Part shown: positions 1 to 56,656 of the stretch, in pieces
Layout of the letters: every line of letters starts with the position of its first letter
Position numbering within the stretch: position 1 is the stretch's first letter
NCBI GenBank assembly: GCA_020072815.1
Contig: JAIQGE010000004.1
Location: forward strand, 62,001-126,000
Length of the DNA: 64,000 nt
Origin: Terriglobia bacterium
Lineage (GTDB): Bacteria > Acidobacteriota > Terriglobia > Terriglobales > Acidobacteriaceae
Direction: 5' to 3'
The notes under the pieces: model-generated
Databases searched by the model: none
Told to the model about the DNA's origin: nothing
What the model saw: only the letters and a program-made list of their open reading frames with translations
Made by a program: the position numbers and the translations under genes

Positions 1-1769
1 CGTTCGCCGATGCCGGGGATGTCCAGCAGTTCTGATGCCCGGTCGCGCATCTGGCGGCGCTTGCGATGGAAGGTAACGGCGAAGCGGTGCGACTCGTCGC
101 GCACCATCTGCACCAGGTGCAGCACGGGCGAGTGGCGGTCCAGCACCACCGGTTCGTCCTCCTGGCCGTACACGTAGATGACCTCCTCCTTCTTGGCGAT
201 GGACGCCAGCGGCTGGTTGGTAATCTCCAAGGACTCCAGCGCCGCAGCCGCGGCATGAAGCTGGCCCAGTCCGCCGTCAACCAGCACTAAGGACGGAAAC
301 GGCTTCTCTTCGTCACGCAGGCGCTTGTACCGGCGCGCGACCACTTCACGCATGGAGGCAAAGTCGTCCACGCCTTCCACCGTTTTGACGATGAACTTGC
401 GGTACTCCTGCTTGTTCATCTTGCCGTCTTCCCAGACGACCATGGAAGCCACGGTCTCCGCGCCCTGTATGTGCGAGATGTCAAAGCACTCGATGCGCTT
501 GGGAAGCTCGGGCAGGCCGAGCGCGTCCTGAAGGGCTTCCTGCGTGGCTTTGGCCGCGGGCTTCATCACGCGGAAACGCTGGTCATACGACTGCTTGGCG
601 TTTTGCGCGGCCAGATCAATGAGCGACCGTTTTTCGCCACGCTGCGGGACCAGTATCTCAACCTTGCTGCCGCGCTTTTCCGTGAGCAGTTCTTCCAGTT
701 CCGCGCGGTCTTCAAAGTCCACGGGGACGATGATGTCCCGCGGGACATATTGCTGGTCAATGTAAACCTGCTTGACCAGCGCGGAGAAGAATATGCCGGG
801 CTGGAAGGAAGGACCTTGTGGAGCGTGGCCGCCCTCGGCCGCGCTAGGTGCATCTGCCGCAGGCGAGGGCGCCTGCGCTCCAATGCTCTCCGGTATCGCC
901 AATTCCGGCAAATCTTCCCAGAAGAACTCTCGCCGATCGAGAATTTTCCCGCCGCGCAGATGGAACACGTTCACGGCCAGCATGTGGTTTTCAAAATGGT
1001 AGCCAAAGACGTCCTGATCGTCGCCTTCAACGGCAGCCATGCGCTGCTTTTCCTGAAGCTGTTCGACCGTGGAGATCAAATCGCGATAGCGCGCGGCCCG
1101 TTCATACTCCTGGTCTTGCGCGGCACGCTCCATGCGCCCGCGCAGCCCGCGCGAAAGATCGGTCTGGCGGCCTTCCAGCAACAGCTTCACGTCGCGCACC
1201 GCTTCGCTGTACAGCTCCGGCGTGGTCAGGTCTTTCACGCACGGCCCCAGGCAGCGCTTGATGTAGTACTGCAGGCACGGCCGCGGATGATAGCGCGTGA
1301 GATCAACTTTGCACGATGGCACCAGAAAATGGCGATGGATGAGATCAACAATGCGGTATGCCAGATTGCCGGGAAAATACGGCCCGTAATATTCGCTGCC
1401 GTCTTTCCGCAGGCGGCGCGTGACGTACACGCGCGGATAGCGCTCAGCCAGGGTGAGCTTGATGTAGGGATAAGTCTTGTCGTCGCGAAGCAGGATGTTG
1501 AAGCGCGGCTTCTTCTGCTTGATCAGATTGTTTTCGAGGGCCAGCGCTTCCTTGTTGTTGGCAACGACGATGTAGTCCACGTCCACGGCTTCGCGCAGCA
1601 GCGAACCGGTCTTGGCGTTGGCTTCGCCCACGCCTTCAGCAAAGTACGACCGGACGCGCGCGCGCAGGCTCTGGGCCTTGCCCACGTAGATGACCTCGCC
1701 CTCAGCGTTCTTGTAGAGATACACCCCGGGCTGTGTGGGGATGGTCCGGATTTTTGCCAGCAGATCCAT
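1..1769 (-). CDS. uvrC: UvrABC system protein C, C-terminus cut by window edge
   Basis: Excinuclease subunit C makes the two incisions around bulky DNA lesions after UvrA/UvrB loading. The reading frame is open from ATG at 1769 to the window edge (589 codons visible). The N-terminus carries the GIY-YIG nuclease core (GVYLYKN, then EVIYVGKA with conserved Arg and Tyr around residues 15-55). The middle holds the RNase H-like nuclease region (CFDISHIQG, LVLVDGGLGQL). The last visible residues, SELLDIPGIGE, are the start of the C-terminal helix-hairpin-helix, so only a short piece is missing. An Ala/Pro/Gly-rich, low-complexity insert lies near residues 285-310. No nucleotide-excision partner gene lies next to it. 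Identification is firm; only the stop is unseen. Confidence 0.95.
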   Translation of the reverse strand, partial: MDLLAKIRTIPTQPGVYLYKNAEGEVIYVGKAQSLRARVRSYFAEGVGEANAKTGSLLREAVDVDYIVVANNKEALALENNLIKQKKPRFNILLRDDKTYPYIKLTLAERYPRVYVTRRLRKDGSEYYGPYFPGNLAYRIVDLIHRHFLVPSCKVDLTRYHPRPCLQYYIKRCLGPCVKDLTTPELYSEAVRDVKLLLEGRQTDLSRGLRGRMERAAQDQEYERAARYRDLISTVEQLQEKQRMAAVEGDDQDVFGYHFENHMLAVNVFHLRGGKILDRREFFWEDLPELAIPESIGAQAPSPAADAPSAAEGGHAPQGPSFQPGIFFSALVKQVYIDQQYVPRDIIVPVDFEDRAELEELLTEKRGSKVEILVPQRGEKRSLIDLAAQNAKQSYDQRFRVMKPAAKATQEALQDALGLPELPKRIECFDISHIQGAETVASMVVWEDGKMNKQEYRKFIVKTVEGVDDFASMREVVARRYKRLRDEEKPFPSLVLVDGGLGQLHAAAAALESLEITNQPLASIAKKEEVIYVYGQEDEPVVLDRHSPVLHLVQMVRDESHRFAVTFHRKRRQMRDRASELLDIPGIGE

Positions 1770-49029: not shown

Positions 49030-49556
49030 TCGGCACCGGGCAACTACCCAGCCGAAAGAACGCCATACCGCCGCATTTCGGCTGAGAATCACCTCCGTTT
49101 TGTTTACCATTTCATAAATATTTCGCCCACCCCACCCCCTTATGGACGCTTTTGTTGAAAACAAAAGGCCAAACCCAATTCGACCGGTCGGTCACCGGAC
49201 GGTCGAAGCTCCTTTTTGGCCTCGTTTCGAGGGCCAATCGGCAATCATTTTTTCAGCAGGTTCGCTTCAGCTTTGTTATCAACTAATAAACAGCGGTGAA
49301 CGACTCACCCGATGCTGAGTGCTCAGTGTTATTTGTCAAAGATCGGCCCTTCCCGGCCTGAGCCGTGCAGAACTTCAGATCATTCGCTAACAGTATATCG
49401 TATTTTGTTCGCTAATGCAATTCGCTAACGCATTATGGACCACAGTTGCCTTGCGTGAGCATCGTGAAAGTTCTTGCCTGAATAAGGCTTGCGTGTCAGA
49501 TCTCAAGTAGTTCCGCGTTTGAGGCTTACTCCGAATGTGCCATAATCGTGCTCACA
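49030..49556. promoter_or_regulatory. Repeat-rich control region upstream of the TIR-Fis gene
   Basis: 527 bp with lower GC than the surroundings and no convincing gene. It holds a perfect 8-bp hairpin, CTTTTGTT-GAA-AACAAAAG, at 49149-49167. A GACCGGTCGGTC palindrome lies within a larger inverted repeat (CGACCG...CGGTCG, 49181-49205). TTCGCTAA occurs three times (49383, 49408, 49421), the last two as TTCGCTAATGCA and TTCGCTAACGCA 13 bp apart. These look like operators; the binding protein is not known. Confidence 0.5.
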
Positions 49557-50342
49557 ATGGACGTGTTCATAAGCTGGTCTGGCGAACGTAGCCGGGCAGC
49601 CGCAGAAGCCCTTCGCGGATGGCCGCCCAAGATCATCAATGCAATCAAGCCTTGGCTTTCATCTGAGGATATTGACAAAGGTGCTCGATGGGGCACCGAT
49701 GTCGCGTCTCGATTGGAGGCAGCAAAAGCTGGGATCATATGCCTGACTCCGGGTAATTTGCATTCAGACTGGATACTTTTCGAAGCTGGGGCGCTTTCCA
49801 AGACTCTTCAGAATACCTACGTGTGCCCGTTTCTGATCGGGCTGGAACCTTCCGACATCAAACCTCCTTTGGCACAGTTTCAAGCCACAAGAGCCCAGAA
49901 GAACGACGTCTTGAAGCTACTAAAAAACTTAAACAGTGCGTTAGCTGAGAGTGCTTTGCCTGAAGCGCACATCGAGGAAGCATTCGAGGTTTGGTGGCCA
50001 AAATTGGAATCTCAATTGAAAGCATTGCCCGTCGAAGGTTCAACAACCAAAACGCACCGACAAGATCGTGAATTGCTAGAGGAGATTCTTTCACTCGTTA
50101 GGAATCAGAACAGATCTTCAATGGAGGCCCTGTTTCCTAAGACTTTTGATCTCAATGACATAAAGACTGAAATCGACAAACAAGCCATCGTGCGAGCGCT
50201 TGATGCATCAGAAGGAAGTTTTGCTCACGCGGCGCGCCTGCTTGGCATTAGTCGGGAAGCTCTTCAGGTAAAAGCTAAGGACTATGGAATTGTGCCAAAA
50301 CGAACAGATACAAAAGATCCCAACGGTGCCAAAGATACTTAG
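49557..50342 (+). CDS. TIR-domain protein fused to a Fis-type helix-turn-helix
   Basis: A 261-residue protein. Residues 1-115 form a TIR-like domain: MDVFISWSGERSR (first strand and loop), WLSSEDIDKGARWG (BB-loop region), AGIICLTPGNLHSDW, then FEAGALSK. Glu76 there corresponds to the catalytic Glu of TIR NAD-cleaving enzymes. A helical linker follows (about 120-195). Residues about 206-245 (IDKQAIVRALDASEGSFAHA, then ARLLGISREALQVKAKDYGI) match the Fis/HTH_8 DNA-binding fold. The start at 49557 fits the TIR fold; a GTG at 49548 adds three residues. Base composition is lower in GC than the neighbours, suggesting transfer. A role in NAD-dependent defence or in regulation is inference. Confidence 0.8.
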   Translation: MDVFISWSGERSRAAAEALRGWPPKIINAIKPWLSSEDIDKGARWGTDVASRLEAAKAGIICLTPGNLHSDWILFEAGALSKTLQNTYVCPFLIGLEPSDIKPPLAQFQATRAQKNDVLKLLKNLNSALAESALPEAHIEEAFEVWWPKLESQLKALPVEGSTTKTHRQDRELLEEILSLVRNQNRSSMEALFPKTFDLNDIKTEIDKQAIVRALDASEGSFAHAARLLGISREALQVKAKDYGIVPKRTDTKDPNGAKDT

Positions 50343-54317: not shown

Positions 54318-54664
54318 GCTGGAAGTGGATGTGCCGCCCCTACGGGGCTCTCATTGTCTTGCAACTCACCCAGGCCTTCCGGCCTGGGCTAACTCATTTC
54401 GCGCCTAACGGCGCTGGACCATCTTGCCGCAGCACAGAATCGTCAAACCCAGGCATCGCAACATATTCCTCTAAAGTAGCCAAGGAATTCTTCATTAGGA
54501 ACTTGGCTTCCTTAATAGGCAACCGCAAGGTCCCTCCGGCCTACGCCCGCGCTGAAGATCACCCCAGCAAGCCAAAACCGGGCTTGCCGGGGGCCCCGAT
54601 ACAAAAGCGCGCGTTCGCTTCACGGCCGTCGGGATGACGGTTTGGCGAGGCGCCGCCGTTATCT
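54318..54664. repeat. Gap with hairpin and GTCCCTCCGG...GGGATGACGG repeats
   Basis: 347 bp without a gene. Positions 54325-54415 have GCCCCTACGGGGC and the perfect hairpin CCCAGGCC-TTCC-GGCCTGGG (54369-54388). Positions 54511-54645 have GCAAGGTCCCTCCGGCCTAC, CCCGCGCTGAAGA and GTCGGGATGACGG, matching the words at 47205-47390. The region ends at the transposon target duplication. Confidence 0.65.
54657..54664. repeat. Target site duplication, left copy
   Basis: CGTTATCT directly outside the left inverted repeat. The same 8 bp stand directly outside the right inverted repeat at 56649-56656. Eight-base duplications are usual for IS1-family elements. Confidence 0.9.
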
Positions 54665-54684
54665 GGTAGTGGGCCAGTTTGGAA

Positions 54685-55536
54685 TCAGGCCGCTATTTGT
54701 TCTTTTTTCTCTAACAGCGAGATCAATTCAGCGATATTCCAGGCATGAGAAGCAATCCCGGCTTCCATTGCAGGCGTCACCCTGAGACTGCTGTGAATGC
54801 GGCAAAAATTGTAGTACATGAAATAGATCGCCAAATTATGGCAATGGTTTTCGTATTTCTTGGAAAACCCATTGGTTAGCCGAGTGAATCTCCGCATACT
54901 CATCCGCATGGTGAGGTTCTGTCTTTCAACATAACTCGTACAAATGTGATTCGGGTCAGGGTTGCCGCTCTTGATTCCAACAGTTGTGCCGATACACTGA
55001 GCAGGGCTGTAACGTGCACTTGAATCCTCTTGCATTGGTGCACCGTACTGTTTTATCAGCATCGCGTAATCCACTTCAGCACCAAACGCACCTTCGATAG
55101 CTTCAGCATAGAATCTCAGACCATCGCTGGTGATTTGTAGGCGAGTGGAAACACGCGATGCTAGATCATCAATGAATGCCTTTGCCCAATTCAAATCACG
55201 CTTCCCGCAAGCGTAAGAAATAATCAACTTCGACTGCGCTTCAATCGCAGTCCATGTCCAGAGATCGCCAATGCCTGTGATGTTTTCTTTGTCCTTCGGA
55301 ACGTTCTTTTTCTTGGCATAGCAGAAGCTCCAAATCTCATCACATTCGACATGCTTCGCCGGGACGTTCCGCACAGCCATGTCATGATAGTCAGCGCAAA
55401 CAGTGCCTAATTCTGCCAGCAGTTTAAGAACTGTGTCCTTGCCGACAGAGAACATCCTGACAATACTCCTAATGCTGTTTCCCTCTATCAGAGCAGAAAC
55501 AATCTGCGCTCGCTTGGATGTAGTTAATCTATTCAT
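54685..55536 (-). CDS. IS1-family transposase, single open frame
   Basis: A 283-residue DDE transposase. The N-terminal helix-turn-helix (LIEGNSIRSIVRMFSVGKDT) is followed by the catalytic core: first Asp in HVECDEIWSFCYAKKKNV, second Asp in LQITSDGLRFYAEA, and the Glu-containing segment CTSYVERQNLTMRMSMRRFT. No frameshift is needed, unlike insAB of classical IS1. Its stop lies 3 bp inside the left inverted repeat. The ATG at 55536 is placed only about 10 nt after a strong promoter -10 box. The in-frame start at 55575 would overlap the promoter. Confidence 0.93.
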   Translation of the reverse strand: MNRLTTSKRAQIVSALIEGNSIRSIVRMFSVGKDTVLKLLAELGTVCADYHDMAVRNVPAKHVECDEIWSFCYAKKKNVPKDKENITGIGDLWTWTAIEAQSKLIISYACGKRDLNWAKAFIDDLASRVSTRLQITSDGLRFYAEAIEGAFGAEVDYAMLIKQYGAPMQEDSSARYSPAQCIGTTVGIKSGNPDPNHICTSYVERQNLTMRMSMRRFTRLTNGFSKKYENHCHNLAIYFMYYNFCRIHSSLRVTPAMEAGIASHAWNIAELISLLEKKEQIAA

Positions 55537-55546
55537 AACAATACAG

Positions 55547-55575
55547 ATTATGCTTGAGCGTACAGGAGTTGTCAA
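55547..55575 (-). promoter_or_regulatory. Transposase promoter
   Basis: On the minus strand TTGACA (55575-55570), 17 bp, then CATAAT (55552-55547): a near-consensus sigma-70 promoter. Transcription should start about 4 nt before the transposase ATG (55536), giving an almost leaderless message. Confidence 0.7.
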
Positions 55576-55650
55576 GCGTAAAACGGCGCATATTCCAATC
55601 GTGGTAAGCTAGAAGTAGGTACTCAATTTGAGGCCAGAAAAGGAGTTTTT

Positions 55651-55722
55651 ATGAATACAAAAAACGACAATAGAAGCCTTGTTCCTACCCTGGGTGTGCG
55701 GGAAAACAGGAGCAGGAATTAA
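55651..55722 (+). CDS. Short ORF in transposon cargo, ends in TAA
   Basis: 24 codons including the stop, starting at an ATG with AAAAGGAG 6 nt upstream and ending at TAA 55720-55722. Protein: MNTKNDNRSLVPTLGVREN-type, hydrophilic. The -1 frame downstream of codon 18 stays open for about 50 more codons to 55865 (QELSVPIGAMSGPVSEKTEV, then RRPAWVCDLEGRDHLDDPKV), which looks protein-like. It may be a decayed gene, or regulated by frameshift or readthrough. No classical slippery heptamer is visible. Confidence 0.35.
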   Translation: MNTKNDNRSLVPTLGVRENRSRN

Positions 55723-55851
55723 GTGTTCCAATTGGGGCGATGTCCGGGCCTGTATCAGAGAAGACAGAAGTCACTTTAGGAATTTCAGAGCCAGGCATAA
55801 GACGCCCGGCTTGGGTGTGTGATTTAGAAGGACGCGATCATCTTGACGATC

Positions 55852-56088
55852 CTAAGGTTTCCTAGACCAGCGTGCCGCTGCCGCCCTCTTCGCGATTGCC
55901 CGGCGTCTCGCGCCCGTTAGAGCTTCAGCCCTGGCCCTACCGCCAACAAGTCCGCCAAGCCTCCCCAGAGCCTTGAATTTCTGACTCCTCTTGCGTTTCG
56001 TGAGCGGTTCACCGATTGCCGCTTCCACAACGCGAAGGGCGTTCTGGGCATCGTCTCGTTTTGCTGGCTGCTTAATCATTGTGGTCAT
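55852..56088 (-). CDS. Small basic protein with GGLVGGRARA...AKRAAAARW motif
   Basis: A protein of about 78 residues from ATG 56088 (a second ATG three codons later). The C-terminal half, ALGRLGGLVGGRARAEAL and RRAIAKRAAAARW, is a recurrent motif of small basic proteins in many bacteria, often near mobile DNA. It is probably nucleic-acid binding by charge, but its function is unknown. It is divergent from the tRNA, with only 28 bp between the ATG and the tRNA 5' end. Part of the transposon cargo. Confidence 0.6.
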   Translation of the reverse strand: MTTMIKQPAKRDDAQNALRVVEAAIGEPLTKRKRSQKFKALGRLGGLVGGRARAEALTGARRRAIAKRAAAARWSRKP

Positions 56089-56116
56089 GCTTGAGCGTGT
56101 GGTAGAAATGTGAGGT

Positions 56117-56204
56117 GCCGTGATGGTGGAACTGGAATACACAGCGGTCTTTAAAACCGCCGTCTCCTAGCCGAGAATTGTGGGTTCAAATCCCATTCAC
56201 GGCA
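56117..56204 (+). tRNA. Class II leucine-type tRNA with anticodon UUA (reads UAA stop)
   Basis: Every arm folds. The acceptor GCCGTGA/TCACGGC has 7 perfect pairs. D-stem GTG/CAC with an 11-nt loop containing GG. Anticodon stem GCGGT/ACCGC. A long variable arm has TCTC/GAGA. T-stem GTGGG/CCCAT with loop TTCAAAT. Discriminator A73, followed by CC. The anticodon loop is CTTTAAA, so bases 34-36 are TTA (56151-56153), pairing with codon UAA. The D-arm and discriminator look leucine-like (A73; layout as in E. coli tRNA-Leu UAA). LeuRS does not need the anticodon, so charging with leucine is plausible. The CCA end is not fully encoded. Confidence 0.88.
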
Positions 56205-56274
56205 CCTTTAGTTCTCCCTTTTCGGGTCTCAGGAGTGCTCTAACACTCTTGAAGTCCGAGGAAAGGAGGTTGCC

Positions 56275-56352
56275 ATGAAAAGGCGTTTACGCGCCATAAT
56301 CATGGTCTTTATCCAGGGTGACGACCTTGTGGTCGTCCTGATCTGGATATAA
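56275..56352 (+). CDS. 25-residue hydrophobic peptide ORF with strong SD
   Basis: The ORF starts with three basic residues (MKRRLRAIIMVFIQGDD) and ends hydrophobic (LVVVLIWI), then TAA. AAGGAGG at 56263-56269 is a near-perfect ribosome binding site with ideal spacing, and a rho-independent terminator begins 9 bp after the stop. The leader (56221-56260) contains an AGGAGTG/CACTCTT hairpin. Size and composition recall small membrane-active peptides or leader peptides, but I recognise no family. It sits 70 bp after the tRNA in the same direction. Confidence 0.5.
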   Translation: MKRRLRAIIMVFIQGDDLVVVLIWI

Positions 56353-56360
56353 CCCCTAAC

Positions 56361-56394
56361 CGGCCCCGGCTTCTCTAGCGGGGCCGCTCTTTTT
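56361..56394 (+). terminator. Rho-independent terminator after the tRNA/peptide unit
   Basis: CGGCCCC (56361-56367) pairs with GGGGCCG (56380-56386), extended by GCT/AGC with a bulge, followed by CTCTTTTT. Confidence 0.85.
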
Positions 56395-56631
56395 CAAATA
56401 TCAAAGACACTGCTCAAGCTGCAAACAACTGATGCCGTTTTGCGCTGCTGCTTTCACTGCTAACGTCTGACAGCCATCCAGTTATTGAAAAACCCAAGCA
56501 AGTTAGGTAAATCGTACAACATGTTGCGTTTTGTTGCATAGCTAAATTGTTTACGCTTTGCTGCACTCTGGTAAATGTCTCATTTTTAAGCAACTTTCCC
56601 CAGAAACACCGGAAAAATCAAAAAACTAACT
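56395..56631. other. Right arm of the transposon, no gene seen
   Basis: About 237 bp, AT-rich. TTGCGTTTTGTTGCATAG and TTTACGCTTTGCTGC are loosely repeated. No ORF or RNA that I can support. It ends in the right inverted repeat. Confidence 0.4.
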
Positions 56632-56648
56632 CAAACTGGCCCACTACC

Positions 56649-56656
56649 CGTTATCT
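56649..56656. repeat. Target site duplication, right copy
   Basis: CGTTATCT directly outside the right inverted repeat, identical to 54657-54664. Confidence 0.9.

Follow-up and report, generated by a model that had tools for sequence, protein, structure and literature searches.

Judging from its sequence, the window, i.e. the whole stretch of 64,000 nucleotides that was analysed, contains an intact Leu-type tRNA with the anticodon UUA inside an insertion sequence of the IS1 family, which has perfect ends and a target-site duplication and is absent at the orthologous place in congeners. We consider it probable that this tRNA is a passenger of the mobile element and a leucine-charged ochre suppressor, and thus represents a mobile mistranslation-cassette trait. 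Together with the similar tRNAs found on unrelated insertion sequences of several bacterial phyla, this suggests that stop-codon readthrough could be moved between bacteria by transposition. The Leu-type body and the potential pairing with UAA had already been recognised in the original prediction, which had, however, overlooked the IS1-family carrier, the relatives borne by insertion sequences and the sister cassettes with other non-cognate anticodons.

Results

The tRNA gene is structurally intact and distinct from the host tRNAs

ARAGORN reported only one tRNA in the 64-kb window, which spans positions 56117-56206 (+), is of the type Stop and has its anticodon TTA at 56151-56153. The Rfam tRNA model (RF00005) assigned 54.7 bits to the gene compared to a gathering score of 29, which is inside the range of the class II tRNAs of the host (29.6-62.5 bits). 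Both results bear out the earlier claim of a Leu-type tRNA with the loop CTTTAAA, for which a covariance model had been proposed as a check. The acceptor stem (GCCGTGA/TCACGGC, 7 bp) is followed by U8 and G9, a 3-bp D-stem (GTG/CAC) with an 11-nt D-loop (GAACTGGAATA), a 5-bp anticodon stem (GCGGT/ACCGC) carrying the 7-nt loop, a variable arm of 19 nt and a T-arm reading GTGGG TTCAAAT CCCAT; every stem is paired and the discriminator at 56204 is A73. The class II fold, A73, the 3-bp D-stem and the 11-nt loop are features of a bacterial tRNA-Leu body, and the 5-bp stem with its 7-nt loop, in which UUA is the anticodon, corresponds to the layout of an ochre suppressor. The folding energy of the tRNA strand is -33.3 kcal/mol (z = -3.4 vs shuffles). 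After A73 the window copy reads CC-T, i.e. CCA is not encoded, and a CCA-adding enzyme would therefore be needed. A promoter-like site for the tRNA was looked for and none was found. An extension of the acceptor stem to 9 bp, in which GT at -2/-1 would pair with A73 and C74, was rejected as chance pairing in the window copy; the relatives have 7 bp.

The UUA tRNA is present in a single copy in the host genome, which harbors all of its normal Leu tRNAs (TAA, TAG, CAA, CAG and GAG). The comparison with this chromosomal set, which had also been proposed earlier, gave a closest host Leu tRNA of 73% identity and a core identity of about 70%; from this we conclude that the UUA tRNA did not arise from a host gene by a single mutation. 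Elsewhere in the host genome, irregular Ser-type tRNAs (GCT, CGA) are arranged in tandem at G000:C1:473429-473635, and a weak Ser-type copy (29.6 bits) is located at C1:109974-110057.

The tRNA is enclosed by an IS1-family element

A repeat search revealed an inverted pair of 28 nt flanking the tRNA. The element itself (Table 1) is delimited by perfect terminal inverted repeats of 17 bp and an exact target-site duplication of 8 bp, an arrangement that did not occur at any of 300 random window positions or in any of 200 shuffles. The transposase matched DDE_Tnp_IS1 of Pfam with 24.4 bits (gathering 24.1) and transpos_IS1 of NCBIfam with 64 bits (E 1.7e-17; below the strict cut-off of 100), and the element has the features of the IS1 family, namely a DDE transposase, terminal inverted repeats and a target duplication of 8-9 bp. 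Besides the transposase it holds a small basic ORF, the tRNA and, after the latter, a structured RNA that includes a micro-ORF and a terminator. The small ORF had no match in Pfam, PADLOC or NCBIfam, and L040, another IS1 element, has a similar ORF next to its related transposase.

In a joined-flank search, three congeners (G002, G008 and G004) were found to have the neighbour genes without the element between them, separated by about 20 to 150 bases; the exact empty site is not displayed because the intergenic region of the window holds other repeats as well. The intact target-site duplication and the absence at the orthologous place in the three congeners would bear only indirectly on a transposition activity of the element. 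None of the IS1 relatives within the same family was found with a tRNA, and the tRNAs at L043 look like a host cluster. Near the insertion site, at 54369-54415, the window contains an Acido-Lenti-1 RNA (Rfam RF01687, 44.7 bits), and the flank holding it is repeated more than a dozen times across the host genome.

Table 1 Features of the IS1-family element in the window and related loci with tRNAs of non-cognate anticodon.
Feature	Location	Strand	Details
Complete IS1-family insertion sequence, 1984 bp	54665..56648	.	TIRs and exact 8-bp TSD
Left target-site duplication (TSD) CGTTATCT	54657..54664	.	sequence
Right target-site duplication CGTTATCT	56649..56656	.	sequence
Left terminal inverted repeat (TIR) GGTAGTGGGCCAGTTTG	54665..54681	+
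Right terminal inverted repeat	56632..56648	-	element end reads CAAACTGGCCCACTACC
Transposase of the IS1 family, listed with 296 aa (an internal ATG being the likely start)	54685..55575	-	TGA as stop; TAA absent in frame
Small basic ORF, listed with 96 aa (probably shorter, with its start at MTTMIK)	55852..56142	-	stop TAG
Leu-type class II tRNA, anticodon UUA	56117..56204	+	ARAGORN, Rfam, structural table
Anticodon loop CTTTAAA	56149..56155	+	anticodon TTA at 56151-56153
Structured RNA with three hairpins, a terminator and a micro-ORF led by a Shine-Dalgarno sequence	56207..56400	+
Micro-ORF MKRRLRAIIMVFIQGDDLVVVLIWI	56275..56352	+	stop TAA
Intrinsic-terminator-like hairpin and T run	56362..56394	+
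Complete IS1595 with UUA tRNA and TSD	L071/L108		Granulicella MAGs
Complete IS1595 with UUA tRNA and TSD	L078		Cognatishimia
Complete IS1595 with UUA tRNA and TSD	L085		Rubellimicrobium
Complete IS1595 with UUA tRNA and TSD	L104		Rhizobacter
Complete IS1595 with UUA tRNA and TSD	L106		bacterium MnTg02
Complete IS1595 with UUA tRNA and TSD	L116		alphaproteobacterial MAG
Leu-type tRNA, Pro anticodon UGG	L173, G000:C11:107494-107582		complete 2262-bp IS1595, TSD TTTGCTAA, B-like/HARE-HTH-like ORF
Leu-type tRNA, CUA	L095		complete IS1 element
Leu-type tRNAs, CCA	L090, L100		adjoining IS1 or D
Two tandem Leu-type tRNAs, UGC	L235		adjoining B-like coiled-coil/winged-helix ORF
Leu-type tRNA, UGA, in tandem with class II UCU tRNA	L234		near large serine recombinase
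tRNA, ACU	L232		on an IS1595 locus; followed by the structured RNA also found in the window

The region downstream of the tRNA is strongly structured, with a folding energy of -66 kcal/mol (z = -6.9) for 56207-56352. An Rfam search of this RNA returned nothing reaching the gathering score, and no true relative of the hairpin was found in viral contigs. It matches an IS1595-associated cassette of a congener with 71%, and a shorter match in another genome adjoins an IS1595 fragment; the end of the micro-ORF (...LIWI-TAA) is conserved in L227 and L228. Copies of the structured RNA (window 56207-56400, L227 1497-1690 and L228 1410-1590) are located 3' of odd tRNAs or of a B-like gene (see below) at IS-associated loci. 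L227, an IS1595-associated locus shared with the ACU tRNA, further contains a SymR antitoxin-like RNA at 501-576 (-) with 47.3 bits (gathering 61).

Leu-type UUA tRNAs recur in mobile elements of distant bacteria

A pattern scan for an exact Leu D-arm followed by the anticodon loop YTYYARA covered 84,980 genomes (one per species) and IMG/VR, and after ARAGORN true Leu-type UUA tRNAs remained at 20 genome loci and 3 viral-contig loci; L071 and L108 represent one element, and so do L080 and L124. By this pattern, one of 396 genomes of the phylum carries such a tRNA. The relatives suggest that the host belongs to the Acidobacteriota. Six further distinct UUA tRNAs are located in complete IS1595 elements with an exact 8-bp TSD (Table 1), and an IS1 or IS1595 transposase adjoins the tRNA in L069, L073, L079, L083, L101 and L152. 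Genes that the loci share next to the tRNA encode transposases of the IS1595 and IS1 families, a protein of about 140 aa (protein B) and one of about 270 aa (protein D); L094, L102, L105 and L112 showed neither a transposase nor a clear B or D gene. None of 30 host tRNA loci that served as control had such IS, B or D neighbours. The collections of plasmid and phage records contained no related tRNA cassette, and the passenger region matched no phage record.

Over 21 UUA tRNAs, 407 of 420 stem cells are paired, compensatory double changes occur in 14 of the 20 stem pairs and A73 is present in all 21; acceptor and T-stem have 7 and 5 bp in every tabulated copy. The compensatory changes and the universal A73 argue for selection for a working tRNA. 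Together with the class II fold, A73 and this covariation also back the earlier proposal that the tRNA could pair with UAA on a Leu body.

Since the scan pattern fixes the anticodon, the recurrence of UUA could be due to ascertainment. When 296 genomes belonging to a single family were searched with protein B, three loci were obtained, each with a UUA tRNA directly upstream, and one of these, L152, is new and would fail the tRNA pattern. Among 30 IS1595 loci fetched by their transposase, a UUA tRNA was present only in the two that have B. Protein B is predicted to consist of a coiled coil and a winged helix; winged-helix regulators topped the list of a fold search, in which no E-value was below 0.001, and a relative of B in the host genome gave a weak HARE-HTH match. 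A winged-helix gene adjoins many of the UUA tRNAs, and L106 shows a weak SocA-antitoxin match next to the tRNA. No true relative of B was found in viral contigs, and PADLOC returned nothing for proteins B and D.

At L094, the UUA tRNA is located about 1 kb from a CRISPR array (about 45 repeats, 61 nt spacing) and, as read by eye, also adjoins a possible toxin-antitoxin pair. In L067 (1-1200), an amber (CUA) Leu-type tRNA lies between a CRISPR-like array (about nine repeats, 72-74 nt spacing) and genes that were likewise read by eye, as csb2/csb1/cas3 type.

Sister cassettes differ in their non-cognate anticodon

Tested by pattern, 4 of 396 genomes of the phylum have a Leu-type tRNA whose anticodon is not one for Leu, and at least one of the four is probably a chance match; such tRNAs are rare. 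The genome of the window itself has two of them, with UUA and UGG. The other anticodons on sister cassettes (Table 1) imply that the reading of UAA is one version of a wider pattern, and since several of these are sense-codon anticodons (UGG, CCA, UGC, UGA and ACU), it may not be the common function.

TAA is rarely used as terminator in the elements

As claimed in the original prediction, genes of the window end in TAA, which applies to 14 of 50 selected long ORFs, and strong constitutive suppression would therefore be costly. Expression of the tRNA might thus be conditional, i.e. low or induced, and the small winged-helix protein that is usually kept beside the tRNA may regulate it. In elements with a UUA tRNA, TAA terminates 3 of 32 genes. 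Among the transposases of tRNA-free related elements it terminates 20 of 45 (p = 0.0009, with gene classes that are not matched), and among the window ORFs the 14 of 50 given above (p = 0.05); for the transposases alone (2/13 vs 20/45) the difference was not significant (p = 0.10). These comparisons are based on a small sample of sequences related to one another, and the under-use of TAA is suggestive only: it would fit an active suppressor, but is no proof of one.

Discussion

Bacterial LeuRS recognises its tRNA by A73, by the long variable arm and by tertiary features and does not need the anticodon, and the anticodon UUA pairs with the codon UAA. The host LeuRS would accordingly be expected to charge the UUA tRNA with leucine, and its pairing with UAA would result in a low-level, probably conditional ochre readthrough; suppression would be partial because release factors compete for UAA. 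The tRNA would be a transferable trait rather than a self-recoding device.

That the element recodes its own genes, so that UAA codons in the transposase or the passenger need the tRNA, is very improbable and, for the genes compared, already largely refuted. No internal TAA was found in any transposase or accessory gene of the UUA-tRNA elements, which makes self-recoding unlikely, the transposases of tRNA-free related elements are just as open, and a stop-to-stop reading of complete elements gave no convincing TAA-bridged protein among the matches listed. The conserved TAA end of the downstream micro-ORF and a TAA-ended gene in some elements would be in line with self-recoding, but the LIWI-TAA peptide is found without a UUA tRNA, too. 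It is hardly conceivable that the loop was created from that of a normal tRNA-Leu(UAA) by an error of assembly or of sequencing in the T/A run, the latter of which had been named at the outset as what would overturn the prediction: CTTTAAA is indeed one step from the common CTTAAAA, but the same loop is present in about 20 other, independent assemblies, one of which was found via a neighbour protein, the stems pair in this register only and the host also possesses a tRNA-Leu(UAA) of its own at another locus. A captured tRNA that is silent or decaying and without effect would be consistent with the single copy, the rarity (1/396 phylum genomes by pattern), the lack of a promoter-like site and the core identity of about 70% to host Leu tRNAs. 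Such a functionless hitch-hiker is nevertheless improbable, since the compensatory substitutions seen in 14 of the 20 pairs, like the universal A73 of the diverged copies, need selection for a working tRNA.

More weight can be given to a role other than decoding, in which the tRNA would be a site for RNase P processing, an RNA partner of the winged-helix protein or a part of a toxin-antitoxin or defence-like system and the anticodon would merely be non-cognate. The varying anticodons of the sister cassettes (UUA, CUA, CCA, UGG, UGC, UGA and ACU), the adjoining winged-helix B or D and, in L106, the weak SocA-antitoxin match, the CRISPR arrays near odd tRNAs in L067 and L094 and the structured RNA 3' of the window tRNA point in this direction. 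We still regard it as unlikely, because the full tRNA identity (A73, T-arm, D-arm and perfect stems) is conserved across phyla, the UUA loop recurs in L152 without being searched for, and no toxin was found. Apart from the ochre suppressor carried by the IS1-family element, we put forward, as a tentative extension, that cassettes of several phyla, located on IS1, on IS1595 and probably on further elements, combine tRNAs of non-cognate anticodon (mostly UUA on a Leu body, but also CUA, CCA, UGG, UGC and UGA) with small winged-helix proteins and could form a transferable mistranslation or readthrough system, perhaps with a part in conflicts with phages or rival elements.

Nonsense suppression is usually regarded as a laboratory trait or a tool of phages. 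Laboratory ochre suppressors likewise have a UUA anticodon on the body of a sense tRNA, whereas the window tRNA is natural, mobile, at best 73% identical to a host tRNA-Leu and no one-base mutant. With the suppressor tRNAs of stop-recoded phages it shares the reading of a stop codon and the location on a mobile element; however, its carrier is a 2-kb insertion sequence whose genes contain no in-frame TAA and whose passenger region matches no phage record. The class II amber tRNAs of viral and gut loci (L066, L118 and others) look like this phage kind. Insertion sequences with passenger genes (transporter IS; families IS1595 and IS1) resemble the element in their IS ends, DDE transposase, 8-bp TSD and extra gene, but the extra gene of this element encodes a tRNA whose anticodon is non-cognate. 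Our literature search, which extended to a minority of the subscription papers, found no description of tRNAs carried by insertion sequences, and novelty is provisional to this extent. The allo-tRNAs of Acidobacteria and soil metagenomes (Mukai et al. 2017, as reviewed in PMC7609411) have a body identity unlike the anticodon, in some cases read UAA, and are defined by 8/4 or 9/3 acceptor/T stems with mostly Ser identity. The window tRNA is a regular 7/5 Leu-type tRNA and fails the stem definition given there.

If insertion sequences spread working ochre suppressors, a single transposition would be enough to gain an altered reading of the code, and this would affect gene annotation, the tolerance to nonsense mutations and conflicts of elements with hosts or phages. 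The odd-anticodon tRNAs of soil Acidobacteria, an earlier puzzle, would gain a concrete and testable genetic setting. The window further contains, at 49548-50342, a candidate defence gene encoding a TIR-domain protein with a Fis-type HTH, which strongly matches TIR-TM of PADLOC (253.6 bits).
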